Made by a program: the position numbers and the translations under genes. The notes under the pieces were generated by a model that was not told where the DNA came from, did no database searches, and saw only the letters and a list, made by a program, of their open reading frames with translations. This document shows, one piece after another, positions 20,332-63,477 of a DNA stretch of 64,000 nucleotides. Origin of the DNA: Solen grandis (Eukaryota > Mollusca > Bivalvia > Adapedonta > Solenidae); the NCBI GenBank assembly GCA_021229015.1, contig CM037783.1, forward strand, positions 27,286,154 through 27,350,153, read 5' to 3'. The number at the start of each line of letters is the position of its first letter. Position 1 is the first letter of the stretch.

Positions 20332-21100
20332 CCACGCGGGGTAACGTGTTACAGGGATTTTTGATGTAACGCATGAACATCGACAAAAATAATACACAGC
20401 AACCATAGAGAACAAACATTTACCACCAGGATTCTGATTAATCCAAAATAACCAAGAACTCTACCCTTCCGTTAGTTTAGTTTAAAACAGTATTATTGCC
20501 TAAGTAATGATGATACAACATTGAAGATTTTAAAAATAAGCAAGAGGGTTTGACCACAAGTTCTAACAACATTAGTATCGGTCATCGCTTTAAAGACACT
20601 TGTGTAATTTTCAATGTCTACACATGTTAACACAGAAGGGGAATATATAACTAATTTCTAAACAAAGCGATTAAGTAAATATCCCATTAAATAAATTCAA
20701 ATTGAAAAAGTATATAAATAATGAGAAGAGAAGAAAAAAACACACTTACAAAAAAGGGTTACTTAAATCAAAAAAAATAAAAAAATAATGTCCCAAAAAA
20801 CAAAATATATAGGTGCAGATATATGAACCTTTCTAAACAGTATCTTTTATTCCCAAAATTTTAATCACCACTTTTTGCGGAAGAGATCAAAGTCGGCTTC
20901 CGGTTCAATGCTCATTGGAGCGTAGATCTACACAGATATACACACTAGAGCGACGCATTGACCTTTGAAAATAACATGTTACATGTCACGTGATGTAATT
21001 CACGCCGGGGAAAAGGTTTATAGGGGGAGTCTAAAAAAACAATACTATAATTTGGAATGTGCGGGCTGCGTTAATTTCAAACATTTAAATTTTTAAACAC
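20332..21100. other. No gene seen
   Basis: AT-rich unique-looking sequence with short A runs. Nothing recognisable. Confidence 0.5.
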
Positions 21101-21224
21101 TAAGTAAGTTAGTGTTATTTAGTAAGCATTAAGTGACTAGTCCATTAAATCGGTCGCGCGGCTTTGCCGTGCCTGACCGATTAATTTAAGTAATGCTTAC
21201 TAAAAAATACACTAACCTATACTT
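21101..21224. repeat. Foldback hairpin 2
   Basis: Arms of about 50 bp (TAAGTAAGTTAGTGTTATTT... and ...TACACTAACCTATACTTA) with loop GCGCGGCTTTGCCGTGCC. Confidence 0.75.
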
Positions 21225-21499
21225 AATTTAAAACTGACTAACTTAGAGTTTGCCCTTACTATTACTACGTTATGGGTGCATATTAGAAGATGGCGCCATA
21301 TAAGTGTTACGTCAGCGTGTTGTTAAAGTATTCACACACTGCACATCTTTTCCCAAAAAGGGTGAACCATAAAATTTTTCGCATTTTTTTACCGTGGCTC
21401 ATTTTCTTTTTAATTTCAATCAATTTTTTGTGGAGGCGTTTTTTTTTTAAATTTTAAATTTATCTTGTTTTGAATTATTTGAAAATCAGAAAATATCAA

Positions 21500-24945: not shown

Positions 24946-25045
24946 NNNNNNNNNNNNNNNNNNNNNNNNNNNNNNNNNNNNNNNNNNNNNNNNNNNNNNN
25001 NNNNNNNNNNNNNNNNNNNNNNNNNNNNNNNNNNNNNNNNNNNNN
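24946..25045. other. 100-base assembly gap
   Basis: Exactly 100 N: a scaffold join of unknown true size. It separates the repeat region from the first visible exon (x20). Confidence 0.98.
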
Positions 25046-38100: not shown

Positions 38101-41100
38101 ACCTGCGCACCTCCATCCTCTTTCTCCTTGGGGTTCTCTTCCGTCAAACAGCGGATCAGGACTCCAATGGCCTGTTTCAAACCGTAAACCTGTAACCCAT
38201 GACAACAACAAGATCAGGAACAGGGGTCAATCCTTTGAATGTCAACCCAATAAACCTTAGGATTTTAGCACTGAATTATAGATGGAAAATTGACAACAAA
38301 ACTGTCCCTTCTCCTTCATTCCTAAATGCACTAGAACATCTCGTCTCTGGCCCTTATTCATCAATATGTAAGTAAGGGCAAGTTTTCAAAGAAATCTTTA
38401 GCTTTTCTTTAAATATTTAAGTGTCTCCAGTTTTATATCATAATAAACAACCCGAATTCTTAACAGATAATGGGTCTTTGTAACTTCATTCAATCTTAAA
38501 AAAAACAAAAACAAAAAAAAACAATAAAAAAAAACACATAAGCCTTAAAGAAGCTTACAAAAATGAATTTTCCTCAGATAATATGATGACCATTAAAATC
38601 GAAAGCAGAAGTTCTTTGATATGATCATACCTCATGAAATGCTATCTTCAAAATCAGACAAAAAAATAAATGTCTGTGTCAAACTGATTGGTTGATGAGT
38701 GTTTGACTGAAATGAAGGGGTTGGTTGATTGGTCAGAAACATGGCCAAAGGGTATTTCATCAGAAATAAATTTTCTATTCTCTTTTTCATCAAAATTTGT
38801 GTACTAAGGATAAGTACATTATTGTTAATAAAAATATTCCTAACAAAGCATGACAATTAGTTTATCAACATTTTTTAATGTCATTGGCTTAATAGTTTGC
38901 CAGGTGGTAATGCTTACATTTTGTTTGTTGTACTTACCTGTTCAGTGTCACATTCTTTGAAAACGCCCACTCTCAGAATGTGGTTGACATAGTCACAGAT
39001 CTTGTTGTCAAACACCACTGCTTGGTTGGTTCCGTTACCCTGGAAACACAACGCCAAATAGTATGACATCGTAGTGAAATCTGCAAGCCTTGTCATGTTA
39101 AACGTATAAATATTTTGGTTATTTATATACAGTTTGTTTAAAATTTAGGTGAAGCATAGATTTATCTCAACATAGGAAACAATACTTTAACTTTAGTTTG
39201 AATTAAAAGTTTGAAGTCCAAAGCATATCCAAAATAGGTATTTTCAAATATATATAATATTTTTCAATTTAGTTAGAAGGTAAAAAGGATTGATCATAAA
39301 ATCAAAGGTATGTAGCATACCCTTCCACCCATATCATCATCTAGTTTACAGTAAACTAGAGCTACCACTGACAGTGATGTATATTCCTCCTACACAGCCT
39401 TATCTCTGTTTGATTGTTCGATCAATTGATTTTCATGTCCCACCGACAGTGTTGCCACACTGCAGTATCTCACTATAAACCTGTTGCATGATACCATTCC
39501 CAGTCATGTTATTCCACCTGGCCAGCCACTTTTAGAACTACCCTGAGCTGAGCACCAAGCATGGGAGCTATACCAGTACCATTTTCAACGAATTTGAATT
39601 AACACTCCTGGGTATAGAACCCACAACCTACCAATTTCGGAGCAGCTACTCTAACCACAAGGACCAGTCTCTCAGTATGAAATGATAAATATTATGTAAA
39701 ATAGGATGACATGGGACAATGGGCATGATTCCTATACAGTTCAGCCTCAGTCTGCAAACCTTGGGTTTAATGTACCCCATATTTGAATGAAATAGCAATT
39801 GCAGGTCAGTTTTTATGAATTCTTGCGACTATCATGTAAATGATAAACCCAGATATAAGAGAAAGTGACTGGCTACTGGTCTTGAAATCTTACCGAGGTA
39901 AACTCCACTAGAGTTTCAAACACCTGTGTGATGAGGGCAATTGAATTCTTGTTGATGTTGGAGTAAAGGATGTTAAGGAACTTGGTTGTCTCTCCAACAA
40001 GATTCACAGACTTGATGTTGTCCGGTTGCTCTCGAAGGTAACTCTACAAATGAAAGTGATCTTGTTGGGGGAATGTATAAATGTATGTACACACATAATT
40101 CAAGAGAAAATAAAATATGTTGATGAAAGATAAATAAAATAAAACAAGAAATGTTCCTTGGAAAACATGTTTCACCTGCTGAAAGAAGTGTGACAGGCAA
40201 AGTGTGGCAGACAGATGACAAAGAATTGATCCCTTTGTGTCAGCTCTGCTAACAGCAGGTGACACACAAATTTCAATGCAAAGCACAGTCTTAAAGGTGT
40301 ATTTTGTGATAGGACAAACAACTTAAAATCAACATTTTACCATGTGCTAGTTCTAATGCCTGAATAATTTAGATACAGATAGATATTATTTCATACATTT
40401 CTTTTTGTAATTCATATAGAACTAACAAAATCCTGTTCGATGGGCACGAATCACTAATTTTTGTACATATACCTCATATAATATAAATAAAAAGTAAAAG
40501 ATTTGAAAAATAAATCTCTTTCAAATATGCAGAATACTACATCTTATGTCATGTCATGACTTACCTGTAAGCCACTGTGCTGGTTGTCACACATCAATCC
40601 AAGAATCCTCAGCACCAGCTCTACATCTTATGTCATGACTTACCTGTAAGCCACTGTGCTGGTTGTCACACATCAATCCAAGAATCCTCAGCACCAGCTC
40701 TACATCTCATGTCATGACTTACCTGTAAGCCACTGTGCTGGTTGTCACACATCAATCCAAGAATCCTCAGCACCAGCTCGATATAACCATCGTCCTTAAA
40801 CTCAAGGTCAGTTGGCATCTCAGAGGCACTGGACATCAGGGCTTGGACCTCTTCATCTTCCATGTTCTATAAGTAAGTCCACCATTAGAAACATATGTAA
40901 GGTTTTCTTGTATTGTTACTAGTTAAGTTCTTATCAAAATTGTTAAGCAATTGCTTTTTAGCAAATTCTTACAAATTGCAGTACAATTGGTAAAGTCAGG
41001 GTTATCAGTAACCCCTAATTTTGAATCTCTGACCCAAAACTACATGGTGTTATGAATTCCACTAGTAAAACAAAGTCAATCATGGCCATCCATGGCACAG

Positions 41101-50100: not shown

Positions 50101-53100
50101 GACTGTAGAGTTTGAGCTCAAATATTATAGGAACAAGCAGTAAATACCCTGATCAGGCAGCTTTTGGAAGGATCTGTCTGATCTGGGTTTCCTCCAATTA
50201 TATATATGAAGGAAAGGGTCAATACTTGAATGTTGTTGGTACAGGACAAAACTCACCTCAACATCAACTGCATCAGGGAGGGGTGTAACTTTGTTAACTG
50301 CTGCCTTGCCAAAGCTGGCCTTGCTGGTCTTAAGTGACCGCATCTCAATACCGTTGGACTGGGGAACCATCAATGTGTTGCCAGGTGGGGCCAACTGTAA
50401 TTTTATACAGTGTTATACTATACTGTACTGTAGACAGATGAGAAGGTAGACATACAGTTGAACATCACAGAACAACTCAAGGAAAAACAGAATTTAGATT
50501 CTTAGCTGCGGTTGTTGCAAAATATGTAACATTAGGCCTTTTCAGGTGACTTTAAGGTGGAAACCAAAATGGTTAAATTATGCATAAATTAGAATACTGA
50601 TGTAGATCCACACAAATAAATAATCTCATGAATAAGAATTCTTTCCAGTGCTATATTACACATATACATTTGCACTCACTGGTCCCCGGCGTCTCCTTGC
50701 TGAGTGTCTCCCAGATGTGCCGCTCCGCAGACTTGCCATGGATTGTCTCATGGACAGCATGGATGTAACGAGGTTACGATTGATCATTGTCACTGCCTGA
50801 AACAGCAAACAGCTGTACTGGTTGGATGCCAATTGCCTTAAGTAATCACCCTCTTTGTGAAGTTTATGTATTTTTGTGTTGTGGTTTTGAACCTTTTTTG
50901 GACAAGAATCTTTCAAGATCTTAAGCATAAAGTACTAGTCTAGTACTATTGTAATTTCTAATTACGAGTATGAAGAAGTGTGTTTGACCATGCTTTTATA
51001 GAAAATATAATATCATTTAATTGAAAATATAAAAAATGACAAGTGCTATCTCTGAAGGTGAAAAACTCCCCCACAGCACCCCCTATGAACAGATATAGAA
51101 TTTTTGTAAAATTGGACACGATATGACAAGACAATGTATATACATAGCCACACATCACTTAACCCTTTCCCTCATAGATACTCATTTTGACACCCTCAAT
51201 AGGTATCACATAAAGCCTGATCTGCAGAAAACCACAGTTAAACCTTACCAAATTTAATTACAAAATCCTCATTTCCAGACCACTGAGGAGCAGCGAACTG
51301 CATAAAAGCAGATCAGCCTGCGAGTTACTCGCAGGCTGATCTGCTTTTATGCTGTTCGCACAGGTTTTTTCATGGTTTCCTCTATGAGGGAAAGGGTTAA
51401 TGAAATAGTGGTGTATCAATTAAGAAATCAAAGACATATGGCCAAGGGTTAAAATGCATTATAATGGCATTCCTGTTATAAAAAGAACTGTATTATACTA
51501 ATGAACATGAACCTACTACATGTATTACCATTTCTTAATGTCAAATATAACTGGTAAAATCTTAGGACTATTAGGAAATATGAAATGCTTGGATGCAAAG
51601 CTAGAAAAACAAAGAATATTTCTTCTCTGTTTGAATTTTCCTTGAATTAGGCCTGGTGCTTAATAAATTATAACTCATCTGATATTGCAGTATCACTGTA
51701 AAACAATACTGAAGCTTTTGTAAAACAGGGTGCAACATTATGGGACACAGTACAAAAGGACTATGTTTATGAAGCCTACATAGCCACTATTTTACTGAGT
51801 GAAGTGTGAATAATGAATCATATTTGACAATTCTAATATGTAAATAAAAACCATTTGAAAAACTAAGAAGAAAAAAAATTAAATGAGATTAATTTCATAT
51901 TAAGTAACTTTATACCGTTGTTGCCATCTGTCCATCTTTCATGGCCTTCCTCAGTGCCTTGGCCTGTGCCAACATCTCCTCTACCTTTGCCTCATGCATG
52001 GCCTGCAGTACACGCCTGTATACACACAAACATCAGGTCAGCCCTCACAATACCTCAGAAATAAATACTTCCAGGTCATATATTACAATATCTTAAGCAC
52101 ATTATTAAAACTGTTCCATTACTTTTACAGTCTGTCAATGTTCGTGTTTAACCAAATATCTTCAAAGTTTTGAAATCAATCTTCTTAACTAGATAATGTC
52201 AAAATTGATTTTATCAACCTGTAAGAAAACTCAATAGCTTGAATTACTGACAACTTACCAGTCAAATCATTCATGTTTTCTTAATCATATTGTGAAACTA
52301 AAGAAAATTGGATCAGAGAAAAAAACATTTTAACTTTATTCTTTATATGTTTTAAAATAAATGTACATAGCACCTTTGATATGTTCATTGTTTAACAAAA
52401 GATTAAGAAAATGTTTTTAAAGTCATAAAGGAAAGTGAATAATTAGTAAGTTTTTTAACAATGAAAATAAAAGGAAATATTAACATTCAAGAAAAGTAAC
52501 AGTATTTATCTGTGAAGGAAGAACAGGTGAGGACCACAGCATATTCTACAGAGAAAATAAGCTACAAAATGGGTTTTTCAAAGCATCGGAAATTCTATAA
52601 ACTATAAAGTTCTCTCAAAAAAATTCAGAACAATAAAATATACAAACAACTCAATGGTATCTTTCACTAAGATTAACAGAATTAACTTTTGCACTTATTG
52701 TTTGTCTGCATTTGCACTTACTGTATTTCTGCATTTTTACTTATTGCTTTTCTGCATTGTTTTGCATAAACTGTTTTCTTGCTTTATAATAAGGTCTAAA
52801 AACCACATTCCTATCTGCTTTATCATATTGTTACATATTCTTTGCTGAGGTAGAAACTCCACATTGCTTGAATTTTTAAAAAACAACTAGACTTGAATTA
52901 GAATCATTCTTACAATTCCTGAAATTTACAATGAATCTGTTAGACCTAATATTCTTTACTTATTATTCCTTAACATAAAATATGCCATATAATACTTTTG
53001 AAAATACAAGACTGATTTTAATGACAAAAGAAACAATTTGATACTCATAATAATCATTAAAAGTTGCAATTAAAACTTTCAAATATTTAAGCAAAAAGAG

Positions 53101-56100
53101 CATTCAAATGACTGATTCTTACTCTTGGTTGATTTCAAAATATCTTACCTCTCTCTAGTTGCTATGGTAGATAGGGTCATTCTTTGTTTAATTGCAAAAA
53201 AGAATGTCTCTTCTCTTGTGCCAGTGAAATATTCAAACATACTTGACTGAAAAATTGACAATTACAATCCCATTAAGATTATGCTTAAAAATCATATGAA
53301 GATATTACACATACTGTTTTTGCCGTAACAGCTATAACATGGGATAATACTGAGTCCTGGCTAGTCTGAAACAAATCTGGATGTAATTTTGATACCATAA
53401 TTATCATTAAACCCATGTTCAACCTGATATGCACTTCTATTTCCTTTCCATATTTTGTATTCTCCTCCAACTTTGTATTACTTTCCTTTTTATTTAATGT
53501 TTTTCTTCTCCACCTTCATTTTTCAACTCATACTCTCTCCCTCTGTTTTCATTCTCCTCCAATATCATATTCCCCCATATCTTGTATTCCTCTCCTACTT
53601 TGTATTTTTCTCCCCTCACCCCACTACATTTTATCTTTCCCACATAATATTCATTCCCTTATTTCATTTTCCTCTCCAACTTCATATTTCATCTCTCTTC
53701 TGTTTTTTTTTATCAATACACTTCGCATTAATTCACCTGCTTTGTATTCCAAACATCAATTGATATTCTCCTCCCCATCTTGTATTCCATTTCCAATTCA
53801 AATACCTCCACCCATACTCTCCCTCTATGTATCCCCAACCTGTTTATTTCATTCATAATTTGTCACATACAGTGCATTAACCCTTTCCCTCATATAGACT
53901 CATTTTGACGCACTCAGTAGGTACCACATAAAGCCTGATCTGCAGAAAACCACAGTTAAACCTTACCAAATTTAATTACAAAGTCCTCATTTCCAGTCCA
54001 CTGAGGAGCAGCGAACAGCATAAAACCTGATCAGCTTGCGAGTTACTCGCAGGCTGATCTGGTTTTATGCTGTTCGCATAGGTCTTTTCATAGTTTCCTC
54101 TATGAGGGGAAGGGTTAAGTGAGTGAACTGTGGTGAACTGTGGTTATTTTGGCATTTCTGAAGCTTCTTCATAGTTTAGCATGGCCATACCATACGCTAC
54201 CCCTTTCAAAAATTTTAAAACATTGTTGTATGGAAATAAGGATAATTATGGTTCTGGGTCAAGATGGGTACACCAGGAAGGCTTGACCTAGATAAAAAGT
54301 GTTTGTACCATCTGTACAAGAGGGTTGAGACAGCTGGAAATCCCTGCATGAAGAGATGCTACATTTAGATCATTGTTACAATGAATGAAGAATACAGATA
54401 AATGCTTAGCAAACTAAAAGCTTGGGTTTACTATATTGAGCAAAACTATTGGAATTGTAAATAGCACAGAGTGAAAATGAAATAAAGATACAAATGAAGA
54501 AAATAAACTAAAATACAGACACTGCAAAATTAATCAAAGAAAAGAAACAGAAAGACGTCTAAGGAATGAACTATTAAACAGGAAGTGTGAAAAATAAAAT
54601 AATAAAAACATTTTGCCTAATCTAATGTTTCTGACTTACTGATATGCTCATAAAATGTGACAACAAATCTGTCAAGTCAAAACTAATCCATAGGCAAAAT
54701 TACAAAAGAATATATTCAACATAACTTTTTTTCAATTTCAGTAACCTTGAATTTGACCAAGGGGCCAACTGTTCCCCTTAAGCAAACTTTTAATAAACCA
54801 TTGCTACAATATAGGTTTCCTTTTATGATTTAGTCTGAATTTTTTTTCCATTTTTTAATAACAGTAAACTTGACTGAAAACACTCAAATATCCTCTTCAA
54901 GTCATATAAAGATATGTCTATCCTATATAGGATTAATAAACACTTAGATTTTATATTGACACTGCTCTTTACATTCCTCAAGGCCTCTCTTATCTTCTTG
55001 GACAAAACATGCAGTAAAAAGAACCGACTCGTTTAAAAAGATACCAAACCTAAACACCAAAAAGTAGCTAGATCAAAGATAAACAAGAAAGTCAGTAGAA
55101 CTGACAGATGCTCCCCGAAGAACGTCATTGTTACAAATAAGGCCTTGGTCAATGGGTGGGAGGATATGTTGAAATCCCCATTCCTAAATCATATCTATTC
55201 TCCTCATCAGATGAGATGTTTTACCAACTCTAATTTGGAGACTTAGTAACAGTTTACTATTTAATATGATAGTATGTGTTACTCATCAGATCTTTCATTG
55301 ATTTTTTTAAAGTTTTTATACTACTAAAAATTAAGTCATACATTTCAATGTGTGCTCATATCAAAGAGGTTAACCAACACTCTTGACATATGACTGGATA
55401 TTTGAAATAGTGTATAATGGCCTAAACAACAATTAGCTGACATGATTATGATTGACATTACTAGCATATTGAATTTTGTGGGGTTTTGTTTAAATGATAT
55501 CTCCTGTTAAATTAGGCAAATGACATGAATATTAGTCAACAACATGGTAGTAGGGGCCATAACTCTCTTAAAGATTGAGGAACCAGGTCACGTCAACGAT
55601 ATGCGTATCTACTCTTGGTAATAAAGCTTCCCATAAAGTTTCATTGAATTCAAGCCATTAGTTCCTGAGAAATAGCCCGGACAAGAATCATGCAACATGA
55701 ACAAGGCAGTCCAAAGGACAGCTATATCCCCTGCCGCTGGCCAAATATTAGAATTTGTTTGGTCATAGGATTATGTTCACCTTAACCTGGCATGGTTGTA
55801 GCAGACATAGAAGATCAGTTTAAGACAATTTAACTTTCCGGAGTTATGTATGAATCTCAGAATTCGGAGGCACATATATTAAAAGTTTACTGACAAGTTT
55901 TACATGGGAAACAGTACAAAAAGTGAACATCAATGAAGTATAGGATGTGATAGGTAACCACAAAATACATGTGTAACTCAATTAAAAACTTTATATATCA
56001 TGACATTATTTGTATGATTGTGAACATGACACGAGATATAGAGATGACATGAAAAAGTGGAGGCTTAAACATTTGACCTTCAAGGATGACCTTGACCTTG

Positions 56101-59100
56101 AGCCAGCGTGACCGCCTCATGCCTTCTGCACATCAGCTCAATGAGGTTAACATTTTAGCCGAGTTTGAAGAAATTGTGTCCAAGCGTTCATGAGATATGG
56201 AGCGGACACAAAAATAACATTTGACCTTCAAGGATGACCTTGACCTTGAGCCAGCATGACCGCCTCATGCCTTCTGCACATCAGCTCAATGAGGTTAACA
56301 TTTTAGCCGAGTTTGAAGAAAATGTGTCCAAGCGTTCATAAGATATGGAGCGGACACGGAAAATGACATTTGACCTTCAAGTATGACCTTGACCTTGAGC
56401 CAGCGTGACCGACACATGCCTTCTGCACATCAGCTCAATGAGGTTAACACTTTAGCCGAGTTTGAAGAAAATGTGTCCAAGCGTTCATGAGATATGGAGC
56501 GGACACGAAAATGTTTCGGACACACTGACGGACTGACGGACGGACGGACGGACGGACTGACGGACGGACGGACGAAGGGCATTCCTATAACCCCCCTTCC
56601 GCTTCGCGGCGGGGGATTAACTATAGGCCAAAAAGTCAAGTGGCCATAACTCTGAAAAAAATTGAGGAACCAGGTCACGCCGACGATATGCGTATCTACT
56701 CTTGGTGATAAAGCTTCCCATAAAGTTTTGCTGAATTCAAGCCATTAGTTCCTGAGAAATAGCCCGGACAAGAATCATGCAATATGTACTATAGGCCAAA
56801 AAGTCAAGGGGCCTTAACTCTTTGAAAAATTTAGGAATCGGGTCATGCTGACGATATGCGCATCTCCTCTTGGTAATAAAGCTTCCCATAAAGTTTCGTT
56901 GAATTCAAGCCATTGGTTCCTGAGAAATAGCCCGGACAAATTTCATGCAATATGTACTATAGGCTGAAAAGTCAATGGGCCATAACTCTGTGAAAAATTG
57001 AGGAACCAGGTCACGCCGACGATATGCGTATCTACTCTTGGTGATAAAGCTTCCCATAAAGTTTCGTTGAATTCAAGCCATTAATTCCTGAAAAATAGCC
57101 CGGACAAGAATCATGCAATATGAACTATAGGCCAAAAAGTCAAGGGGCCTTAACTCTGTAAAAATTTAGGAATCAGGTCATGCTGATGATATGTGCATCT
57201 CCTCTTGGTAATAAAGCTTCCCATAAAGTTTCGTTGAATTCAAGCCATTAGTTCCTGAGAAATAGCCCGGACAAGAATCATGCAATATGTACTATAGGCC
57301 GAAAAGTCAATGGGCCATAACTCTGTGAAAAATTTAGGAATCGGTCATGCTGACGATATGCGCATTTCCTCTTGGTAATAAAGCTTCCCATAAAGTTTCG
57401 CTGAATTCAAGCCGTTAGTTCCTGAGAAATAGCCCGGACAAGGAAAGTGGGACGGACGGACGGACGAACGGACGGACGGACGAAGCGGCAACTATATGCG
57501 TCACCTTCGGTGAGCATAAAAATGAGCAATATCTCATTTCTATTCAAGTTTTACACGCCTCTCTAAATACAGTGTAGATCCATTATAGCGCACTCTATTA
57601 TATAGATCCATTATAGCGCACTCTATTATACTCTACTATATTATGATTGTAACACAGTTGATAAAATATGTTATATAGAATAGGGGCCTAAATAAAGTGT
57701 CATAATGAAGCTGCACTGTATTTGGTAAAATAAACATAAACTATCTCCTAATTTGCTAATGAGCAAAAAATATCAAATTCACAGCCCTTCATTAATCTAT
57801 TCCTAAGAAGAAAAAGATAAAATTTATACATTTCATCAGGGGTGAAAATCACAAGTGCAGGTAAGTCTGTAAATAGTTAAACTAAGGAATTAATCAAGGG
57901 TAAAAAGCATTGATAAAAAGCATTGTTTTGACAGCCCCATGTTTTGTATATTAGTTTATTTAGTTAAGTTTATTTTTTTTTTCAATTTTAAAATTATTTT
58001 ATCTTACATTAATTGGGAAATAAGTTCTTACAATTTATACTAATTTGTTTCAAAATTTCCTGGGTTGGACTAGTACATATTGCATGGGAAGGTCAGTAAA
58101 AAATATTTGCCGCCCAATGGGGTTTGAACCCAAAACCTTTGGATACGCAGTCAGGTATACTACCAATGGACCACAGCGACCTTTTTAGAGATGAAAGTAA
58201 ACAAGTGTTGTTTCTCTCTTTTAAGGTAAATTTCTCATATTCTGATGATTTAGTTTTTTTTTATGTTTTTGCAAACACTTAAAAAGGATATAACTGGTAA
58301 GGCTTATCAATTTCCTTTATTTCAACCTGATCATCTAAAGTGGTTGGAAGACAGTCTAATGCAACAGGGAAGGGAGATAACTGATATATTTATTTGGATG
58401 ATTGATATGGTAAATGGATGTAATCTTAGTTTTTATATCAAAATAGGACATTTCTGACATTTAAAAGGGAGACATATAATATGAAAACTGGAGAAAATTC
58501 AAAACAATAAATTAAAAGAGATAACCAAAGACATGATTGAAATATAAAAGCAGAGATAACATACATAAAACCGACATTTATAAATGAAAAAAAAGGACAT
58601 GATTGACATATAAGACAGAGATAAATAATGCAAAAATCAGAATAACATATAGATAAATGATAACTTAAAACAGGGGGCTGTCAACTCTACGGGGGTGTGC
58701 AGATACAAGAAATGTTCAGGTGGAGCTCACAGTTACCTTTCCCTGATGGCAACCAGGGAGAGACCAAATCGTGACTTTATAGAAAAGAAAAACATCTCCT
58801 CTCTTGTTCCAGTGAAAAACTCATACATGCTGTCCTGTATTGTGAGAAAACGTTTTTACTGGTTTAAAAACTAAAGAAAACTTCCAACATGCAAATGTTT
58901 TGCAAAAGTTGCTGCTTCTATGGTGCCCATGAGACAAAACATAAAACACTGCTAGCCCTGCAGGGCCTGTGTAAGCATGTAGAGAACAACTGCTACTGAT
59001 ATGGAAAAATAATACTTCTGTTAAAATAGAAAAAATGCTGCAATGATAAACAAGTTTAATAATACACAATAAAAAATATTGGATGTATTTAATTATCAAT

Positions 59101-60015
59101 TATTTTCCAATATATCTGAATAATATTAGGTACAAATATGATAAAGGGTGATATATACTACTTACTTCTTCCTGGAAACAATGAGTGGGATCAATGGACT
59201 GAATATGTATTCCAATGTTTCAGAAAAGAGATTGAAAATATGATGTGATTACAGACATTTCTGTAATTTGCGTGAAAATTTGTCCTCCTTATCTCATGTT
59301 GTTTTTTTTCTTGTATGTAGCTAATTATATCATGTTTCTCAATGACTTTAATTTCAATTTCATACAGATTGACAGGAAAAAATAACTGGCCCTAAACAAA
59401 TACTGTACCTGGACTTCCTCATTGCCATTGAAGAGAAGTGCAGCCAGAAAGGCCAGCAGCTCACGTACGATGTCGTCGTTAGGTCTGGACAGGTGCTCCA
59501 GGGTCCCATTAATACTGCCGAGCTGGTTCAGGGCATTCTGAACATCTTCAATCACCTTCAGCTGTCTGTAAACATACCAGTCAAACACACCTTTTCATGC
59601 AGCCAATCAAGCAAGAAATGCATTTTTCTAACTTACTGTCAAGAAATCAATGCAAACTGAATTTGCTTTATACTGGCCAAAAACAGATAAACAGTTTAAA
59701 CAAGAGCACTGCAAAACCAAAGAGCCAGTCATTATTCTAGGGAAAAAAATTGTGTGTAAAATATTAACAAGGCTTTCTTGAAATTCCTTCAAAATTGTGA
59801 ATGGAGCTGCAAGTATCTACTTAATATACTGACAGTGTCAGTATAAAAATGTTGTCTGAGATCAAGGGGCAACAACTCTGCAATAGCTTACCCGACTGAC
59901 ATAAAAATTATGTCACACATATCTGCATAATAAACAGCTTTCTAACAAATTCCCACCCTGATCACATTCATAATAAAATCAAGATCTGGAGACAAATGTT
60001 CCATTTCCCCAATAC

Positions 60016-60053
<38 letters not shown>

Positions 60054-63000
60054 TCTCACACAAACACTCAAAATTGTTGAAAACCTACTTTTTGCATGAC
60101 TTGACATCATTTTCATAATCCTCTGGAAGCTTGATAATCTCATTATGCAGGATCCCGCGGAGGAGCTGCAAACACTTGATGTCCAGTTCAACCTGCAAGA
60201 TGCGCTCCTTTTCATTGAGGAGAGTCAGACTCGTTGATATCCTGTGTTGAAATGGAAGAGAAAGTTTAGCATTATTGTACAGAGAATTAGATATTCATAT
60301 CTGAAACTTTTTACAAAAAGCTTTATCACTTATGAAAATCTTCCTTGTTGGCAGTCTTTGATGTAGAAGGGCACAGGAGTACCTGATAATGACATACATA
60401 TATGTAAGAACATACTATGATATCATATTAGTTTAAACTAGTGTATTGGCCACTGTGCCATCTGGACACCCAAATAAGTTTTAACAACAAACTAGAATGG
60501 CTATAGATTACTGTAAAATCATTATTTTTCATTGCACGAAATTTAGTGGAATCTGTTATAAAGTCAATTTTGCATGTTTTAAAATGTGAGGTCTGCAAAA
60601 TAAACAGTTTTCGTAGGGATACATATTTGTTGATAAAGCCATCCCTTTAATCAATTGAAAATTAGTCACCCCATTTTAATTACTGATTCTACAGTATTAA
60701 CATTCATGCTAAACTTCTTTTGACTAAAAGCTTCAATATTCTTACCTATGTGTCTCAAGTCTTCAAAATTTATTCATTTTTATTTTGTCAATACTTATTC
60801 TACTATTAATATCACAGCACCAAAAATGTCCATTTTTAGCACAGTTTCTTTAGTATCAGTAGCTTCTATAGTGGTTTCACAAAGTATAACTGAACATACA
60901 TTCTCAGGATCAATATGAAGCATACGTACTCAAGCTGTTTGATCAACTTCTCTGCAAGTTTGAATTTTTCTAGAGGGGTCTTGGCATTGGGGTTTATGAA
61001 GCTGTTGACATGTGCCTGGAACTCTGACCCCAGGGGCAGTTCTTCGTCTCCGCCCACTTCTGAGTATGCTGAAAGTATAGTACTACATACATTACGACAA
61101 GATTCAATATAATCAGATCAATGCATAGAACATGATTTTAACCAGGATTAACTATCATATAATTATTATTTGCATATACATAATACATGTTTATACAAAC
61201 CAGACAATTATTTAGATGTAGAACCCAAATAAAGAATCCTACAGGATCTAGTTAGCATGGATACCCATTGTTTTATTATCATATGGTGAAACCCTAAAAC
61301 TACTAAGAAATTCTAAAACCACTTCTAACACAACTATTTCAAAAACTGAATGGTTTCACATATAATTTCATAATCAGGATTCCCTGATCACTCCAGATTA
61401 CATATTCATAAATCTATATTTATCTATACTCGAATGCAGGATTCTAAAGTTAGAAATTTTTATTTTCATGTTGTATTTCAAAACGAATGTGGAAAATCCT
61501 GATAAAAGATGGTAATTAAACTACTCAAAAGCGATTAAAAACCCAGTATATGTGAGTGTAGGACAGGATGGGACATGCTTTATTATAACACATGTAACAA
61601 TGGCGTGCCTCATGGAGCTTTGATACAAGATGATTTCGCGACTTACGTGCTCTGCTTGGAAAGCCTATCTGGGTCTGTACATCATTGATTCCGCCATACG
61701 CTGCCTTCATGTTCACCGCAAACACGTTCAACTTCCCGTTGATCTCCTCCTCTGCCATGTAGTAATCCTCATAGTGCTATAACCATGACAACCAGGTATT
61801 GCAAACAAATCTTTTGAAAATGAACATCATAGTACTGAGAAGAAACCTATTAGAATTAGTCTGAATAAGATATTCGAATAAAAACACAATATGAGTTATA
61901 GTCATTATAGCTATCATACAGGAAATCTATTAACCCTTTCCCTCATATAGACTCATTTTGACGCACTCAATAGGTATAACATAAAGCCTGATCTGCAGAA
62001 AACCACAGTTAAAGTTACCACAGTCCTCATTTCCAGACTACTGAGGAGCAGCGAACAGCATAAAACCTGATCAGCCTGCGAGTTACTCGCAGGCTGATTT
62101 GGTTTTATGTTGTTCCCATAGGTCTTTTCATGGTTTCCTCATATAAAACATATAATTATGATATCCTTCTTTATATATCATGAATAATGCTTTAAACAAT
62201 AGGGAATTATAAAATCTCTGGTAAAATTAATACATGTTGATAGCATACTTAAGAAATCTAGGACATTACTTTTAAAAGGGTACTAATTTTATGAAAATCA
62301 GAAGCAAAAGAGCCCCATAACTTTCAGGAGGCAAGAGAAAACCAGGTTTAAGAATGAAAACAATATGCAAATCAAATGATCTGGCCACGTACCCGCCTGG
62401 CATCACTGCGCACATCCTGCCCACTCACTCCTTTCCCATAGGTCTCATTGAACTCCTCCATCTCTTCGATGGACAGGGTGGAGTTAGAGAAGAGCACACT
62501 CATACAGGAGATCAGGCTCTGCATCTGGCGCTCGATACTGATCAATGGTGACACCACCTCCAGGAACTCCTGTTAACATGCCACATTTACCAAAGTAATG
62601 GCTGACAGAGGAACTGTTCTATATTCTTGCACTTGAAACAGTTTTGTTGTTAACCCTCAAGAGTTTTTTTTGGCCATTTTATGATTTAAATGCAGATAAA
62701 AAAAATCAGCCCTATATCCTTCATCACACTGTACATTCATCTACAAAATGATATTATATTATAAAAATCATATAACAAAATTCCACTTGGGCTAAATCCA
62801 TATTTTGCCATACATTTAATTAACATATAGTGTATTTTCAGAGACTTGGACTCAAAATATGGTGTTATAATGAGATGTTTTATATCACAGCCAGTGCCAT
62901 CCCAAATAATGGCCTCAGTAAAACATAGCCATGGCTTAATATAACTCCTTTGAAAAACCTAAAGCATCTTATGCAGACATGTACAGTAAAACAAATCCTA

Positions 63001-63477
63001 GGAAAGACAAACGGATGTATTAACAGACAGTAGTTCTGTACTACAAGATGCACAAGATGAGACTTAGGCTGACCTTGAAGGTTTTTGTCAGGTTGTCCAT
63101 ATCCTGGGGTTCCTGGGGGTACATGGCACTGTCGATCTGGTAATAGCTGCGGCAGAATATCTGTAACATACAGACTAGAGTTAAACTTCAGCCTATAAAG
63201 TCCTGTACTTTAAGTCTCATTATTTGTTGTGTAAATTCATGCAGAAAAATCTTATTTTTTTGTTTGCAATTATGTAGTCACTTGTATTTCTAAATAGAAT
63301 TTTCATACAATGATTGCTGGTGGTCTAAATCATCTGTATTCCTTTGTCAAGTGTTTATATGAAAATGAGATATTCACATTAAAACAAAAACATCTCACCT
63401 GTAAAAATGGCATGACAGCATCAAACAGGTAATGCAGTGACCCCCTTATGGTTTCTGTTCTGTCAGAACCTCTCTCA
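25212..63477 (-). CDS. IP3 receptor / ryanodine receptor-like Ca2+ release channel, internal part (exons x1-x20)
   Basis: Spliced gene read right to left; both ends lie outside what is visible. Twenty exon positions with GT/AG borders join into one open frame of 715 codons with matching phases at every junction, which is strong internal support. Landmarks recalled from the IP3R/RyR superfamily: an armadillo-type stretch ending LLFNGNEEVQ (x7), a following FF-containing helix (x8), then a block starting ILGLMCDNQ and going on with SYLREQ, ALITQVFETLVEF and GNGTNQ (x12-x14), which fits the RIH-associated domain. These proteins are tetrameric ER/SR membrane channels that release Ca2+. Whole family members are about 2700 (IP3R) or 5000 (RyR) residues, so this is a fragment from the regulatory/coupling part. 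No ligand-binding core or pore helices are present here. Residue spacing looks closer to IP3R than RyR, but a divergent invertebrate IP3R-type paralogue is possible. Spans 38 kb with introns from about 230 bp to 9.4 kb. Confidence 0.75.
25764..26515 (+). repeat. Bivalve-type dispersed repeat ending GCTCAGGTGAGCTAAAA
   Basis: Starts AACAGGAGGGACATGATGGC, includes four modules of about 145 bp (GATCATTCCTATTGAGTTTC ... GGAGGAGATGTC), and ends with CTCACCTGAGCAC...GTGCTCAGGTGAG, a hairpin. Related to 41752-42773. The ORFs at 26135-26508 are by-products. Confidence 0.75.
26516..27371. other. Intron sequence, no gene seen
   Basis: AT-rich intron between x19 and x20. No repeat or RNA gene recognised. 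Confidence 0.5.
27372..27395 (-). CDS. Candidate 24-nt microexon x19
   Basis: 24 nt, phase 0, eight codons EKQAIEKK. Acceptor GTCAAG follows a T-rich tract; donor GTAAAC. Weak alone, but the charged helix continues naturally from AWKAYE (x18) into the basic x20. Confidence 0.4.
27555..27701. repeat. Foldback hairpin 3
   Basis: Arms of about 66 bp (AGAATCTCACAAGAGTTCAT ... and complement ending GTGAGATTCT) with loop GAGCCTCTGACGAG. A wider inverted pair TTATCACATGAC (about 27704-27715) and GTCATGTGATAA (about 28112-28123) encloses TTAA MITE copy 1. Confidence 0.75.
27829..28062 (+). mobile_element. 234-bp TTAA MITE (piggyBac-like), copy 1
   Basis: Flanked by TTAA on both sides. Terminal inverted repeats CCCTTTCCCTCATA / TATGAGGGAAAGGG. 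A perfect inner hairpin (CAGCCTGCGAG / CTCGCAGGCTG) lies around 27985-28010. The TTAA target duplication and CCC-starting ends are typical of piggyBac superfamily elements; non-coding, so it would need a transposase elsewhere. Confidence 0.85.
28067..30388. other. Intron sequence with a TG microsatellite
   Basis: No gene seen. A (TG)n run lies at about 29112-29143; the ORFs over it in both strands are by-products. Confidence 0.6.
30389..30457 (-). CDS. Ca2+ release channel exon x18
   Basis: 69 nt, phase 0, 23 codons (EVMEYLDTDVLVVTMTEAWK, then AYE). Fits the helix after the RIH-associated domain, where IP3 receptors have ELVDVIKKAY. Acceptor TTGCAG, donor GTATGT. Confidence 0.7.
31041..31673. 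repeat. 36-bp minisatellite, about 18 copies
   Basis: Unit GTCTGGAATATCTATCACAG then TCATATTATACTGATA. Several units lack three bases (TATCAGTCAT instead of TATCACAGTCAT) and are 33 bp; later units tend to have ATCTGG instead of GTCTGG. Lies in the intron between x17 and x18. Confidence 0.9.
31674..33158. other. Intron sequence, no gene seen
   Basis: AT-rich, no clear repeat. Confidence 0.5.
33159..33200 (-). CDS. Candidate 42-nt microexon x17
   Basis: 42 nt, phase 0, 14 codons GQHQEARRLDISSK. Acceptor ATAAAG after a pyrimidine-rich stretch (TATCCTTCCCTTC), donor GTATGG. GC content is higher than the surrounding intron. It joins in frame to EVMEYLD of x18. Confidence 0.55.
33953..34186 (-). 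mobile_element. TTAA MITE, copy 2 (reverse)
   Basis: Full 234-bp copy in opposite orientation, TTAA on both sides; the right terminal base is changed (GGA instead of GGG). Confidence 0.85.
34191..35336. other. Intron sequence, no gene seen
   Basis: AT-rich intron between x16 and x17; only short A/T runs. Confidence 0.5.
35337..35372 (-). CDS. Candidate 36-nt microexon x16
   Basis: 36 nt, phase 0 at both ends, 12 codons QNGAVSNSTKST. Acceptor TTTCAG and donor GTATGT are both good. It is too short for similarity, so the case rests on splice signals, open frame and correct phase between x15 and x17. Ser/Thr-rich; could be a cassette insert. Confidence 0.5.
36099..36312 (+). mobile_element. TTAA MITE, copy 3, flanked by TTAT
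   Basis: 214 bp; about 20 bp of the central hairpin (one arm) are deleted. Both flanks read TTAT instead of TTAA. The matching change on both sides shows that this 4-mer is a target duplication and not part of the element. Confidence 0.8.
36317..38087. other. Intron sequence, no gene seen
   Basis: AT-rich intron between x15 and x16. The 110-codon ORF at 36174-36506 starts inside the MITE and is not credible. Confidence 0.5.
38088..38189 (-). CDS. Ca2+ release channel exon x15
   Basis: 102 nt, phase 0, 34 codons (VYGLKQAIGVLIRCLTEENP ... GGAQVNLPK). Helix matching the LLxAxMESR segment at the end of the RIH-associated domain, then a charged Lys/Glu loop. Acceptor TTACAG, donor GTGAGA. Confidence 0.75.
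38938..39039 (-). CDS. Ca2+ release channel exon x14, RIH-associated domain
   Basis: 102 nt, phase 0, 34 codons (GNGTNQAVVFDNKICDYVNH ... FKECDTEQ). The NQ and the following helix correspond to the ENQ...GIDII part of IP3 receptors. Acceptor TTCCAG, donor GTAAGT. Confidence 0.8.
39403..39680 (-). mobile_element. Old, diverged copy of the tRNA-headed SINE
   Basis: Follows the body of 2198-2505 (CATGTCCCACCGACAGTGTT, GCCACACTGCAGTATC, GGGAGCTATACCAGTACCAT) but with many changes; the pol III head is weak (TTCGGAGCAGC...). Lies in the intron between x13 and x14. Confidence 0.75.
39894..40043 (-). CDS. Ca2+ release channel exon x13, RIH-associated domain
   Basis: 150 nt, phase 0, 50 codons (SYLREQPDNIKSVNLVGETT ... 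ALITQVFETLVEFTS). Corresponds to the family pattern of LQ-x-FLR, NLVxETxxFL and IxQxxExLxEF. Acceptor TTGTAG, donor GTAAGA. Confidence 0.8.
40565..40722 (-). repeat. Two extra tandem copies of the 3' half of exon x12 with donors
   Basis: A 79-bp unit (57 exon bases plus GTAAGT and 16 further intron bases) is repeated in tandem so that the exon end occurs at 40723-40779, 40644-40700 and 40565-40621. The copies are almost identical, so the duplication is recent. They have no acceptor of their own beyond a weak TGTAG. Use of the second or third donor would add 79 or 158 nt and shift the frame. Confidence 0.85.
40723..40866 (-). CDS. Ca2+ release channel exon x12, start of RIH-associated domain
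   Basis: 144 nt, phase 0, 48 codons: acidic lead (NMEDEEVQALMSSASEMP), then GYIELVLRILGLMCDNQHSG. The ILxLxCDN-x4-LQ run matches the opening of the RIH-associated domain of IP3 receptors. Acceptor TTATAG, donor GTAAGT. The last 57 nt, the donor and 22 intron bases are repeated twice more directly downstream (see 40565-40700); only the first donor keeps the frame into x13. Confidence 0.8.
41752..42773 (+). repeat. Bivalve-type dispersed repeat, long version
   Basis: Starts AACAAGAGGACCATGATGGC and ends TGTGCTCTGGTGAGCTAAAA. Internal modules of about 150 bp (GGGATAAACTTTATTTTAG ... GCAGCCATGA) repeat five times. ORFs at 41954-42681 are by-products. Confidence 0.75.
42774..43976. other. Intron sequence left of the Ngaro element, no gene seen
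   Basis: AT-rich; the 136-codon minus ORF at 43685-44095 runs into repeat A1 and has no recognisable motif. Confidence 0.5.
43977..44102 (+). repeat. Ngaro terminal repeat A1
   Basis: 126 bp starting AATAACGGATATTG and ending CAAGGTTACT; matches A2 at 48885-49010 essentially base for base. Sequence on either side differs, which sets the left edge of the element. Confidence 0.9.
44182..45102 (+). CDS. Ngaro ORF1, Gag-like protein with zinc fingers
   Basis: 306 residues from an ATG 80 bp after A1. Starts with an Arg/Gly-rich segment (MPRGRGRRTRGGAG), likely RNA-binding, followed by a low-complexity stretch, a helical middle part and a Cys/His-rich C-terminus. Near residues 270-300 the spacing C-x8-C-x4-C-x3-H is a CCCH finger, followed by a CxxC-x3-H-x4-C knuckle-like motif. 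Role inferred from position: packaging of element RNA. It overlaps the next ORF by 53 bp in another frame (+1 relative), so RT may be made by frameshifting or re-initiation. Uninterrupted in this copy. Confidence 0.8.
   Translation: MPRGRGRRTRGGAGVPYTRGRGGGTANSEASVTEVVQLSADTCTTSPGNTGNQLDNNQPGHVFSALFQPPPDRQHRDGTVQSFQDNTSGFFLPESSISCADDDLTMHVPSEIVKKIWLGEYVNLALLLKTGANDYNTVTEQQLCVNEQGQIVSKQKPGRRIRTIREWTDAFIVFMAIYIKKKPGAAQELLHYMNVIRDAESRSPNLSWCAYDENFRMRQANSLQNWGKINPDLWLRCMSFNQQSTPSSHSAINKSQIFASQRPRGICLDFNNPKGCFYKNCKFSHKCLGCGKDHPEFRCFRTTKRT
45050..46741 (+). CDS. Ngaro reverse transcriptase / RNase H
   Basis: 563 residues, uninterrupted. RT motifs in order: VSPLGLVPKK, FRLIHHLSYP, GKADIKSAFRLIPV (catalytic Asp), LLFGCSISCAIFE and HYLDDFIFG (catalytic YxDD). 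RNase H follows: LFTDSSAAVGNGFGAYF (first Asp), LLEYFPILVAVYIWG (Glu), FLCDNASVVAIL (Asp) and VPGVKNDIADSLSR (Asp). The RT type is that of DIRS/Ngaro elements. The listed ATG may not be the true start because the frame is open across the ORF1 overlap. It overlaps the recombinase ORF by about 100 bp. It copies element RNA into DNA, probably with ORF1 protein. Confidence 0.92.
   Translation: MVRTIQNLDAFVQPKEHNGPQNRFNLSKSPIVLEMLSTLLSDYPDHEAGTKLLRGFENGFSLEYTGERKNFECNNLKSAMDKKILVSELINKEISEGRVEGPFSTPPFKNFRVSPLGLVPKKEAGKFRLIHHLSYPDGDSVNDHIDPDLCSVNYTRFDAAVQMVQRLGKGALLGKADIKSAFRLIPVSPEDYCLLGFKFEGGYYFDKALLFGCSISCAIFETFSTFLEWVTKQNCDQAELEHYLDDFIFGCKPGTDQCFQTMHTYFNICSSIGVPIAKEKTVWPTTVLVFLGLELDSVLSQVRIPKEKIEQIVTLIRETLTKKNIKLKAMQSIIGLLNFMCRAIVPGRPFCRRLINSTRGITKPYYHIRISKGMRQDLEMWLTFFKDFNGISVFHDKFWSLNSNVSLFTDSSAAVGNGFGAYFRGKWSYGVWPADWHNQGVTDDITLLEYFPILVAVYIWGKQLQNKKVKFLCDNASVVAILNAQTSKSQRIMVLVRALTLKCLEYNIVLKAEHVPGVKNDIADSLSRLQWSRFRKLAPMAEKNPTPVPTYLWNIFSLNPDSF
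46639..47600 (+). pseudogene. Ngaro tyrosine recombinase, one frameshift
   Basis: Two adjoining frames make one recombinase of about 320 residues. The first (46639-47190) carries a core-binding-like N-terminal domain (SANTHKVYRNAITSFKNF; ATYISAISYFHK) and the first catalytic Arg in FGLFRVGNLLSL. The second (47187-47600) carries HSFRIGAASWLA (H-x-x-R), the LGRWSS box and the nucleophile Tyr in the terminal KYIRI. The shift lies at about 47180-47190, where the stop and the next ATG overlap as ATGA. All catalytic residues are visible, so the frame break is the only defect. It could be a real mutation, an assembly indel, or programmed slippage. Function: inserts the circular cDNA by site-specific-type recombination, without target duplication. 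Confidence 0.88.
47602..48323 (+). pseudogene. Ngaro ORF3, SGNH hydrolase with an intron and a frameshift
   Basis: Starts at an ATG overlapping the recombinase stop (TGATATG). A first short coding part (47602-47662) runs to a donor GTACAT; a 100-bp intron ends TTTTCAG at 47762; the frame is restored as a split Asp codon. Then come LIGDSYIYW (block I nucleophile Ser), a Gly-containing block and IFIHLGSNDLGD (block III Asn). Block V appears as FRDGVHLSDVG (Asp and His) but in another frame: a one-base shift is needed in the A-rich stretch near 48115-48130. SGNH/GDSL hydrolases cleave esters; the role in Ngaro elements is unknown. Confidence 0.75.
47663..47762 (+). other. Spliceosomal intron inside the Ngaro ORF3
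   Basis: 100 bp, starts GTACAT and ends in a T-rich tract and TTTTCAG. Phase 1. The joined product runs from SFMQIK directly into DVWLIGDS, restoring the first residues of the SGNH fold, which have no ATG of their own in that frame. Confidence 0.65.
48359..48886 (+). repeat. Ngaro terminal repeat B1
   Basis: About 528 bp from GGCGGAAAATTCTGG to GCGATAA. From 48433 on it matches B2 at a constant offset of 701 bp, with no difference that I noticed over 454 bp. It abuts A2. Two tandem units of about 70 bp (GTCTGGTGCGTCAAxTCTG...) lie inside at 48440-48585. Short ORFs here are by-products of the repeat. Confidence 0.85.
48885..49010 (+). repeat. Ngaro terminal repeat A2
   Basis: 126-bp second copy of A1, lying between B1 and B2 as expected for split direct repeats. 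It is followed by about 100 bp of spacer (49011-49109) before B2. Confidence 0.88.
49110..49587 (+). repeat. Ngaro terminal repeat B2, right end of element
   Basis: Second copy of B, 478 bp; lacks about 50 bp near its start (after a G-run) that B1 has, otherwise matching. Ends GCGATAA at 49587, then unrelated host sequence. A TTAA-MITE begins 29 bp downstream. Confidence 0.85.
49616..49849 (-). mobile_element. TTAA MITE, copy 4 (reverse)
   Basis: 234 bp, TTAA at both ends, 29 bp after the Ngaro element. Small differences in the hairpin arm (CAGCATGCGAG). Confidence 0.85.
50257..50394 (-). CDS. Ca2+ release channel exon x11
   Basis: 138 nt, phase 0 at both ends, 46 codons (LAPPGNTLMVPQSNGIEMRS ... 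PLPDAVDVE). Proline- and serine-rich linker just before the RIH-associated domain. Acceptor TTACAG, donor GTGAGT. The intron after it (9.4 kb) contains the Ngaro retrotransposon. Confidence 0.7.
50680..50796 (-). CDS. Ca2+ release channel exon x10
   Basis: 117 nt, phase 0 at both ends, 39 codons (AVTMINRNLVTSMLSMRQSM ... ending RHSARRRRGP). A Ser/Arg-rich basic tail, probably a flexible exposed loop. Acceptor TTTCAG, donor GTGAGT. Confidence 0.7.
51163..51396 (+). mobile_element. TTAA MITE, copy 5
   Basis: 234 bp with TTAA on both sides, in the intron between x9 and x10. The central hairpin arms (CAGCCTGCGAG / CTCGCAGGCTG) are intact. Confidence 0.85.
51916..52015 (-). CDS. Ca2+ release channel exon x9
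   Basis: 100 nt: one base completing an Arg codon with either x8 version, then 33 codons (RVLQAMHEAKVEEMLAQAKA ... DGQMATT). Strong amphipathic helix or coiled-coil look. Acceptor ATACAG, donor GTATAA. Confidence 0.75.
53149..53246 (-). CDS. Ca2+ release channel exon x8, version B (mutually exclusive)
   Basis: 98 nt: 32 codons (SSMFEYFTGTREETFFFAIK ... STIATRE) plus two bases. Acceptor TTTCAG, donor GTAAGA, both stronger than those of version A. Core EFFTGTREE-x-FFF is kept; the divergence is concentrated in the last third (QRMTLSTIAT versus SRFGLSLVAI), the part that would differ between protein forms. Confidence 0.8.
53881..54114 (+). mobile_element. TTAA MITE, copy 6
   Basis: 234 bp with TTAA on both sides, in the intron between the two versions of x8. 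Confidence 0.85.
54119..55547. other. Intron sequence between x8 versions, no gene seen
   Basis: No third version of x8 was found here by eye. The pyrimidine-rich stretch just to the left (53440-53850), next to version B, is full of TTCTCC/CCCCAT; its ORFs are by-products. Confidence 0.5.
55548..55700. repeat. Separated first unit of the 168-bp repeat
   Basis: GGCCATAACTCT ... GAAATAGCCCGGACAAGAATC, the same unit as 56621-57440 but about 900 bp away. Confidence 0.8.
56040..56600. repeat. Three 148-bp units rich in TGACCTTGA, with GACG tail
   Basis: Units start at 56074, 56222 and 56371 (TGACCTTCAAGGATGACC then TTGACCTTGAGCCAG). End in a GACGGACG run (56518-56575) and CCTTCCGCTTCGCGGCGGGGG hairpin. 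Confidence 0.85.
56621..57484. repeat. Five 168-bp tandem units with GACG tail
   Basis: Unit starts at 56621, 56789, 56957, 57125 and 57292 (CTATAGGCCAAAAAGTCAA). Ends with GGACGGACGGACGAACGGAC (57450-57484) and CACCTTCGGTGAGCATAAAA. No gene. Confidence 0.85.
58109..58180 (-). pseudogene. tRNA-like 72-nt pol III unit, probably a tRNA pseudogene or SINE head
   Basis: On the minus strand: GTCGCTG at the 5' end can pair with GGGCGGC at the 3' end (with G-U pairs and one mismatch), A-box-like TGGTCCATTGGTAG, B-box GGGTTCAAACCC, total 72 nt, and a T6 run a few bases downstream that would stop pol III. The anticodon stem pairs badly, so a functional tRNA is unlikely. Confidence 0.4.
58737..58834 (-). 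CDS. Ca2+ release channel exon x8, version A (mutually exclusive)
   Basis: 98 nt: 32 codons (DSMYEFFTGTREEMFFFSIK ... LVAIRE) plus two bases. Acceptor ATACAG, donor GTAACT. Same length, same phase and about 21 of 32 identical residues with version B at 53149-53246. Using both or neither would shift the frame, so the pair must be alternatives. Confidence 0.8.
59409..59565 (-). CDS. Ca2+ release channel exon x7
   Basis: 157 nt: one base plus 52 codons (QLKVIEDVQNALNQLG ... FLAALLFNGNEEVQ). The pattern LL-x-x-GN-x-x-VQ is the clearest superfamily signature in the window; IP3 receptors have LLxGGNxxVQ at the matching place just before an FF motif. Acceptor TTACAG, donor GTACAG. Ends in phase 0, ready for either version of x8. 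Confidence 0.8.
60020..60051. repeat. 32-base poly-C (poly-G in the transcript)
   Basis: Uninterrupted C run; on the coding strand it is G32 in the intron, 37 bases downstream of exon x6. The true length is uncertain because such runs are hard to sequence. Confidence 0.85.
60089..60241 (-). CDS. Ca2+ release channel exon x6
   Basis: 153 nt: one base, 50 codons (ISTSLTLLNEKERILQVEL ... ENDVKSCK) and two bases. Helical region of RIH/armadillo character (LDIKCLQLLRGILHNEI). Acceptor ACACAG, donor GTAGGT. In the transcript strand a 32-base G run starts 37 bases after the exon end. Confidence 0.75.
60930..61068 (-). CDS. Ca2+ release channel exon x5
   Basis: 139 nt: two bases completing a codon, 45 codons (YSEVGGDEELPLGSEF ... 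AEKLIKQL) and two bases left over. Acceptor TTTCAG. Two overlapping donors are possible (GTACGT or GTATGC four bases on); only GTACGT keeps the frame into x6, so I chose it. Confidence 0.7.
61647..61776 (-). CDS. Ca2+ release channel exon x4
   Basis: 130 nt, starts in phase 0 and ends one base into a codon. Starts HYEDYYMAEEEINGKLNVF and ends GFPSRA. Acceptor TTATAG, donor GTAAGT (consensus). The split codon is completed by x5. Confidence 0.7.
61934..62140 (+). mobile_element. TTAA MITE, copy 7, decayed right end
   Basis: Left TTAA and left inverted repeat present. An internal deletion (AAAGTTACCACAG) is seen and the final GAGGGAAAGGG is lost, so the right end is not defined. The oldest-looking copy. 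Confidence 0.75.
62393..62569 (-). CDS. Ca2+ release channel exon x3
   Basis: 177 nt, phase 0 at both ends, 59 codons beginning EFLEVVSPLISIERQMQSL and ending DVRSDARR. Acceptor TAACAG, donor GTACGT. Predicted mostly helical, with an acidic stretch (SIEEMEEFNETYG) in the second half. Confidence 0.75.
63074..63160 (-). CDS. Ca2+ release channel exon x2
   Basis: 87 nt, phase 0 at both ends, 29 codons (IFCRSYYQIDSAMYPQEPQD... ending TKTFK). Acceptor TTACAG, donor GTCAGC, which is a weaker donor. Low-repeat, high-GC exon in AT-rich introns. Confidence 0.7.
63399..63477 (-). CDS. Ca2+ release channel exon x1
   Basis: 79 nt: one base completing a split codon, then 26 codons (ERGSDRTETIRG... ending FDAVMPFLQ). 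Acceptor TTACAG, donor GTGAGA. It is the most upstream exon I can place; its phase requires a preceding exon ending with two bases of a codon, which lies beyond or near the window edge. Confidence 0.65.

Follow-up and report, generated by a model that had tools for sequence, protein, structure and literature searches.

A gene on the minus strand of a 64,000-nucleotide (nt) stretch of the Solen grandis genome (GenBank assembly GCA_021229015.1, contig CM037783.1, positions 27,286,154 to 27,350,153; hereafter the window, in whose numbering positions are given unless another contig is named) carries two homologous versions of one exon, 8a and 8b. By homology the gene appears to encode a divergent IP3-receptor (IP3R)-like channel, and our comparisons argue strongly for an old tandem duplication of exon 8 whose copies are spliced mutually exclusively. 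The pair would probably allow two forms of the channel. A sequence-only reading of the window had proposed such a pair; purifying selection on both copies, and the finding in relatives of each type by itself between exons 7 and 9, support the proposal.

Structure and frame logic of the exon pair

Exon 8a (58737..58834, minus strand) was located by tblastn with Mercenaria, Mya, Mactra and Pecten proteins. It is 98 nt long, runs from phase 0 to phase 2 and reads DSMYEFFTGTREEMFFFSIKSRFGLSLVAIRE plus AG, between the acceptor ACAATACAG and the donor AAG/GTAACT, which has a C at +5. Exon 8b (53149..53246, minus strand; homology, tblastn) is also 98 nt long, runs from phase 0 to phase 2 and reads SSMFEYFTGTREETFFFAIKQRMTLSTIATRE plus AG, between the acceptor TTTTTCAG and the donor GAG/GTAAGA. 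GT-AG sites flank both copies, in line with the good splice sites and equal phase claimed by the sequence-only reading; the weaker donor is that of 8a. The two share their splicing partners: upstream exon 7 (59409..59565, minus strand), which ends ...AALLFNGNEEVQ in phase 0, so that the segment does lie directly after LLFNGNEEVQ as first described, and downstream exon 9 (51916..52015, minus strand, by homology; the x9 of the sequence-only reading), which starts with 1 nt (phase 2) and continues as (R)RVLQAMHEAKVEEMLAQAKALRKAMKDGQMATT. The intervening GT-AG intron (53247..58736, minus strand) is repeat-rich and 5490 nt long, matching the spacing of about 5.5 kb given earlier. Exons 8a and 8b are homologous exons of one gene, equal in length and phase, with plausible splice sites.

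The coordinates given earlier for the two exons proposed to encode one segment proved exact, 53149 and 58834 marking their outer ends, and the earlier count of identical residues is recovered: 21 of the 32 whole codons encode the same residue (22/33 counting the split Arg codon). Nucleotide identity is 61/98; placed without gaps anywhere else in the window, on either strand, 8a reaches at most 44/98. Over the first 60 nt of flank, 18 positions match upstream and 14 downstream, and the similarity thus does not extend past the splice sites. The 11 differing residues had been said to cluster in the last third of the segment; five do lie there (positions 23, 24, 27, 28 and 30), but the other six are at positions 1, 4, 6, 14, 18 and 21.

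The claim that including both copies or neither breaks the frame was confirmed. Exon 7 ends in phase 0, each copy ends in phase 2, and the first nucleotide of exon 9 restores the frame; both 7-8a-9 and 7-8b-9 read open through exon 10 (50680..50796, minus strand, weak homology). With 8a joined to 8b, the frame closes at about the 24th codon past the junction, and with exon 7 joined directly to exon 9 it closes at the 8th codon.

Trivial sources of the pair were ruled out. Both copies lie within one 50,000-nt piece of the assembly that has no runs of N, which excludes an assembly artefact or scaffold join; chance repeats are excluded by the difference between the best and next best matches of 8a given above, and a copy of the pair elsewhere by the lack of any other close place found. 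The shared strand, phase and flanking exons rule out a join of two genes.

By eye, the intron between the copies shows GGAC runs and imperfect repeats, each about 170 nt long, at 55540-57480. A 67-nt palindrome lies at 54011-54077, and a second member of the same repeat family was recognized by eye at about 51293-51359, with exon 8b between them; similar remnants of open reading frames recur in the window.

Age and constraint of the two copies

Third codon positions hold 21 of the 37 nucleotide differences between 8a and 8b. Over the 32 codons the proportion of synonymous differences (pS) is 1.0, that is, saturated, and the proportion of nonsynonymous differences (pN) is 0.22. This argues that the copies parted long ago and that constraint at the protein level has been kept in both.

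Each of three paralogues from this genome has, in the stretches examined, just one exon 8, of exactly 98 nt. The frame-breaking length is therefore ancestral and older than the duplication, so that a duplicated exon 8 would be useful only if spliced exclusively. The sequence-only reading had stressed that 98 is not divisible by 3; the frame does break as claimed, but the length is inherited and by itself no sign of selection for exclusivity.

Distribution of 8a and 8b among relatives

We compared 141 proteins of relatives, clustered at 90% identity; the segment is present in 115 of them (116 segments). A signature of F23, V28 and M30 occurs in three proteins, P0002, P0016 and P0018, and the 8a of the window has F, V and I at these positions. 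F23 occurs in no segment other than the 8a forms; Y4 and V28 are common to the 8a forms but also occur in a few others. In the segment alignment F23 is absent from the other bivalves, the gastropods, the annelids and the nemertean, and all those rows except Littorina, Pinctada2 and Dreissena2 have T at position 30, as in 8b. The absence of F23 and the prevalence of T30 in these rows mark 8b as the older version and the copy closest to the ancestral exon.

The sequence-only reading had called for a search for the same pair in other bivalves, and this yielded a Mya gene model with both exons in the same order, as well as 8a-type and 8b-type exons each alone in relatives. P0016 (2017 amino acids) is encoded on a contig of 6968 nt, of which 6051 nt are coding, with exon 7 immediately before 8a and exon 9 immediately after it; its identity with the Mercenaria protein is 89.7% across 2042 columns. 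Because so much of the contig is coding, where introns of the gene in the window range from about 240 nt to several kb, the P0016 contig is almost certainly a spliced mRNA. The other informative proteins (P0002, P0015, P0017, P0018 and P0019) are database gene models, some of them predicted. P0018 (Mya ‘isoform X3’) has only 8a between exons 7 and 9, and P0015 (Mercenaria ‘isoform X2’), P0017 (Mactra) and P0019 (Dreissena) have only 8b. In the Mya model P0002, on a contig equal in length to that of P0018, 8a and 8b are strung together with altered junctions (VQ is lost and SCGQAY stands between them); this double inclusion is probably an annotation error, and the model nonetheless places the two exons within a single gene, in the order found here. 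A search among short relatives gave 21 matches, all of which were scanned (12 were read), with no further 8a.

In some forms of the classical IP3R paralogues an insert of about 11-14 residues occurs at the exact exon 8/9 junction (KEK-MILRRKFQQKG-RSLL; compare P0077 with P0087-P0091 of Crassostrea virginica; also P0080, P0093 and P0101). The exon 8/9 junction thus seems to be alternatively spliced in this sister family.

Proposed mutually exclusive splicing and its alternatives

Under our preferred reading, Solen grandis would make single-exon mRNAs of both kinds, and exclusivity would rest at least partly on the reading frame, single inclusion being the sole productive outcome. The simplest enforcer would be nonsense-mediated decay, which would remove transcripts with both copies or neither. 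The distance between the copies speaks against steric crowding as the enforcer, and the absence of U12-type sites against a mismatch of U2 and U12 sites.

Several observations weigh against an old, mutually exclusive pair in a channel of this kind. P0002 joins both copies in one gene model, and no relative was found with both forms as separate transcripts, in a set whose clustering at 90% identity hides isoforms. The 8a of the window shares 20/33 residues with each other 8a form, compared with 20-24/33 with the 8b forms, and its best match by identity is the Mercenaria 8b form. Classical IP3R paralogues often have I30 (M-N-I in 29 segments), so F23 alone is special to 8a. In the profile match to ITPR2, the portion that covers exon 8 scores weakly (i-Evalue 0.026); with the single Mercenaria sequence against ITPR2 it is not significant (-2.4 bits). 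A search of introns 7-8a, 8a-8b and 8b-9 for long complementary stretches found no notable pairing; the best five pairings for each pair of introns are 10-15 nt long and mostly A/T.

The alternative that fares best concerns origin and is compatible with mutually exclusive splicing: Mya, Solen grandis and the organism of P0016 could each owe their pair to a separate duplication, followed by convergence. Only 20/33 residues are common to the 8a of the window and the other 8a forms, and in trees of exon 8, whose 33 columns are too few to settle the origin, a constraint that unites 8a and 8b of the window costs 0.94 log units (approximately unbiased test, p-AU 0.37) and one that unites the window 8a and the heterodont 8b forms costs 1.62 (p-AU 0.15). 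A separate origin in Solen grandis is thus not rejected by the trees. In the best trees the three 8a forms nevertheless come out as a weakly supported group (92/75, and 75/69 when two long rows are left out); these forms share F23, found in no other segment, as well as Y4 and V28, which a few other segments also have. In Mya as in Solen grandis 8a precedes 8b, and for Mya alone a sister relationship of 8a and 8b is worse by 15.9 log units (p-AU 0.058). We consider separate duplications rather unlikely.

That 8a is a dying or dead duplicate, no longer used in Solen grandis, would fit its longer branch and greater divergence and the C at +5 of its donor, yet pN is far below pS, the frame and both splice sites of 8a are intact, and 8a-type exons are spliced in the relatives P0016 and P0018; we hold this to be very improbable. 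Least probable is that 8a serves mainly as a poison exon, its protein sequence being minor and the early stop after joint inclusion lowering the amount of channel, as both copies are conserved at the protein level and P0016 and P0018 have 8a in place of 8b with the frame kept; the two functions of 8a could in any case coexist.

The encoded channel and the predicted effect of the switch

The assignment to an IP3R-like channel draws on the relatives and on the window. PF08709, PF02815 (MIR), PF01365 (RIH), PF08454 (RIH_assoc) and PF00520 (ion transport) are all present in full-length relatives such as P0015, P0017 and P0018 (precomputed matches), RIH_assoc is also encoded in the window itself, and a model of P0026 matches IP3R3 and IP3R1. 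In one alignment of the Mercenaria relative with ITPR2, the DRQKLMR and RKN stretches are kept and RTT.R is not; we take these stretches to be the IP3-contacting basic residues. At about residues 2400-2415 the same relative (P0015) reads VEGPYTQFEN where the ryanodine receptor RyR2 has AGGGIGDEIE, and GGG at the filter is absent from the pore segments of the 45 relatives examined and from the pore exons p1-p3 of this genome. The gene therefore seems to belong to a divergent IP3R-like clade lacking the GGGIGD/GGGVGD filter, with VEGPYT or similar at that site. The earlier designation as a Ca2+ release channel needs qualifying: its basis is homology, which places the protein in the IP3R/RyR superfamily, and the glycine motif is missing from the aligned relative.

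A Pfam scan of exons 1-10 returned no family above its cut-off, and a single-sequence search of the Protein Data Bank (PDB) with exons 6-10 returned mainly designed armadillo proteins. A profile and a model were needed to place the exon 8 segment, which falls in helices of an armadillo domain. At positions 23, 27 and 30 the 8a forms have F, L or Q, and I or M, respectively, and the heterodont 8b forms have M or V, T or I, and T; most of the clade has T at both 27 and 30. Because of their spacing (i, i+4, i+7) the three positions would lie on one helix face. The switch may thus alter one helix face, bulkier with 8a, in an armadillo-type domain between RIH and RIH_assoc. The likely effect of the swap is a change in domain packing or partner binding; a bulkier face would tune these and hence the coupling from cytosol to pore, rather than ion selectivity.

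Probable fragmentation of the gene and a second candidate exon pair in the pore

The piece of the window measures exactly 50,000 nt, with a run of 100 N at each end, and C148 and C456 are also 50,000 nt long; boundary sites lie at 24946-25045 of the window and at 1199-1298 of L008. Residues 312-1392 of the Mercenaria protein match C19 by tblastn, residues 1393-2062 match C7 (the window) and residues 2062-2597 match C456; 18 of the 162 candidates were scored, and the three parts are complementary in the matches seen. The assembly was likely cut into 50-kb pieces that scaffolding misplaced, for which reason the parts on C19, C7 and C456 probably form one gene. Positions 1-24945 of the window may not be true neighbours of the gene.

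Outside the window, C456 carries two further, neighbouring alternative exon candidates on its minus strand, p1 (34165-34343; L015 3166-3344) and p2 (33058-33236; L015 2059-2237), each 179 nt long. By comparison with RyR2 they encode what we take to be S5, the luminal loop and the pore helix. The two agree at 130/179 nt (pS 0.77, pN 0.13); either alone keeps the frame, and both or neither breaks it. We found nothing at the transcript level to show that p1 and p2 are alternatives. This pair is probably in the same gene as 8a and 8b. We see an even chance that a single clam IP3R-like channel lacking the usual glycine filter carries two frame-enforced switches, 8a/8b and the 179-nt pair. If so, the two switches together would yield four channels from a single gene and would let regulation be tuned independently of the pore.

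Further downstream on C456, at about 16,000-22,000 (L019), a partial second copy of the C-terminal part of the gene contains a third version, p3; there is also a decayed relative with stops at L019 5315-5446.

Relation to known splice switches

Mutually exclusive pairs are a known kind of feature, and we found no earlier report of the 8a/8b case. In open-licence PubMed Central (PMC) literature no report of mutually exclusive exons in any animal IP3R was found. In the parts of PMC6026295 and PMC4204029 that describe them, insect RyRs have a mutually exclusive pair in the second SPRY domain. As in the clam pair, one exon is used at a time in a channel of the same superfamily and one version is taken as the common form; the insect pair differs in belonging to a RyR, to an N-terminal SPRY domain and to insects, whereas ours lies in the armadillo domain of an IP3R-like protein. 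For insect IP3Rs, the relevant portion of PMC6026295 states that mutually exclusive exons have not been mapped and that their existence cannot be dismissed. Tribolium IP3R has an optional small exon, GDSLLDER, according to the corresponding part of PMC4204029; it too is alternatively spliced in the cytosolic part of an IP3R-type channel, but as an in-frame insert that is included or skipped, with no homologous swap. Tandem duplicated exon substitution events, as treated in part of PMC9741552, resemble the present case in that old duplicated exons alternate and retune one protein segment, and differ in occurring in human genes.

Vertebrates vary this type of channel by three genes and optional inserts. 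In the clam lineage, swapping an exon seems to vary a single armadillo helix of a single gene, which would provide a natural minimal channel pair, 11 residues apart, as a handle on communication between the helical cytosolic domain and the pore. Taken with the further pair for the pore, the swap would make an unusual combinatorial case for an intracellular channel. The case also points to a divergent IP3R-like clade whose filter region is unusual.

Other features of the window

The remaining exons upstream of the pair, all on the minus strand, were placed by homology (tblastn): exon 6 at 60089..60241, exon 5 at 60930..61068, exon 4 at 61647..61776, exon 3 at 62393..62569 and exon 2 at 63074..63160. 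Exon 1 (63399..63477, minus strand) is the first of the stretch and not of the gene, starting from about residue 1393 of the 2601-amino-acid Mercenaria relative. Downstream, at 38938..40866 on the minus strand, three exons (40723-40866, 39894-40043 and 38938-39039) encode RIH_assoc (Pfam PF08454, E=9e-24 for the joined translation). A tRNA search of the window found none. A 79-bp tandem repeat at 40549-40779 (2.9 copies, 98% matches) repeats the 3' end of a RIH_assoc exon together with its splice donor, and a minisatellite occupies 31037-31768, its minus-strand reading repeating IDIPDYQYNMTV.

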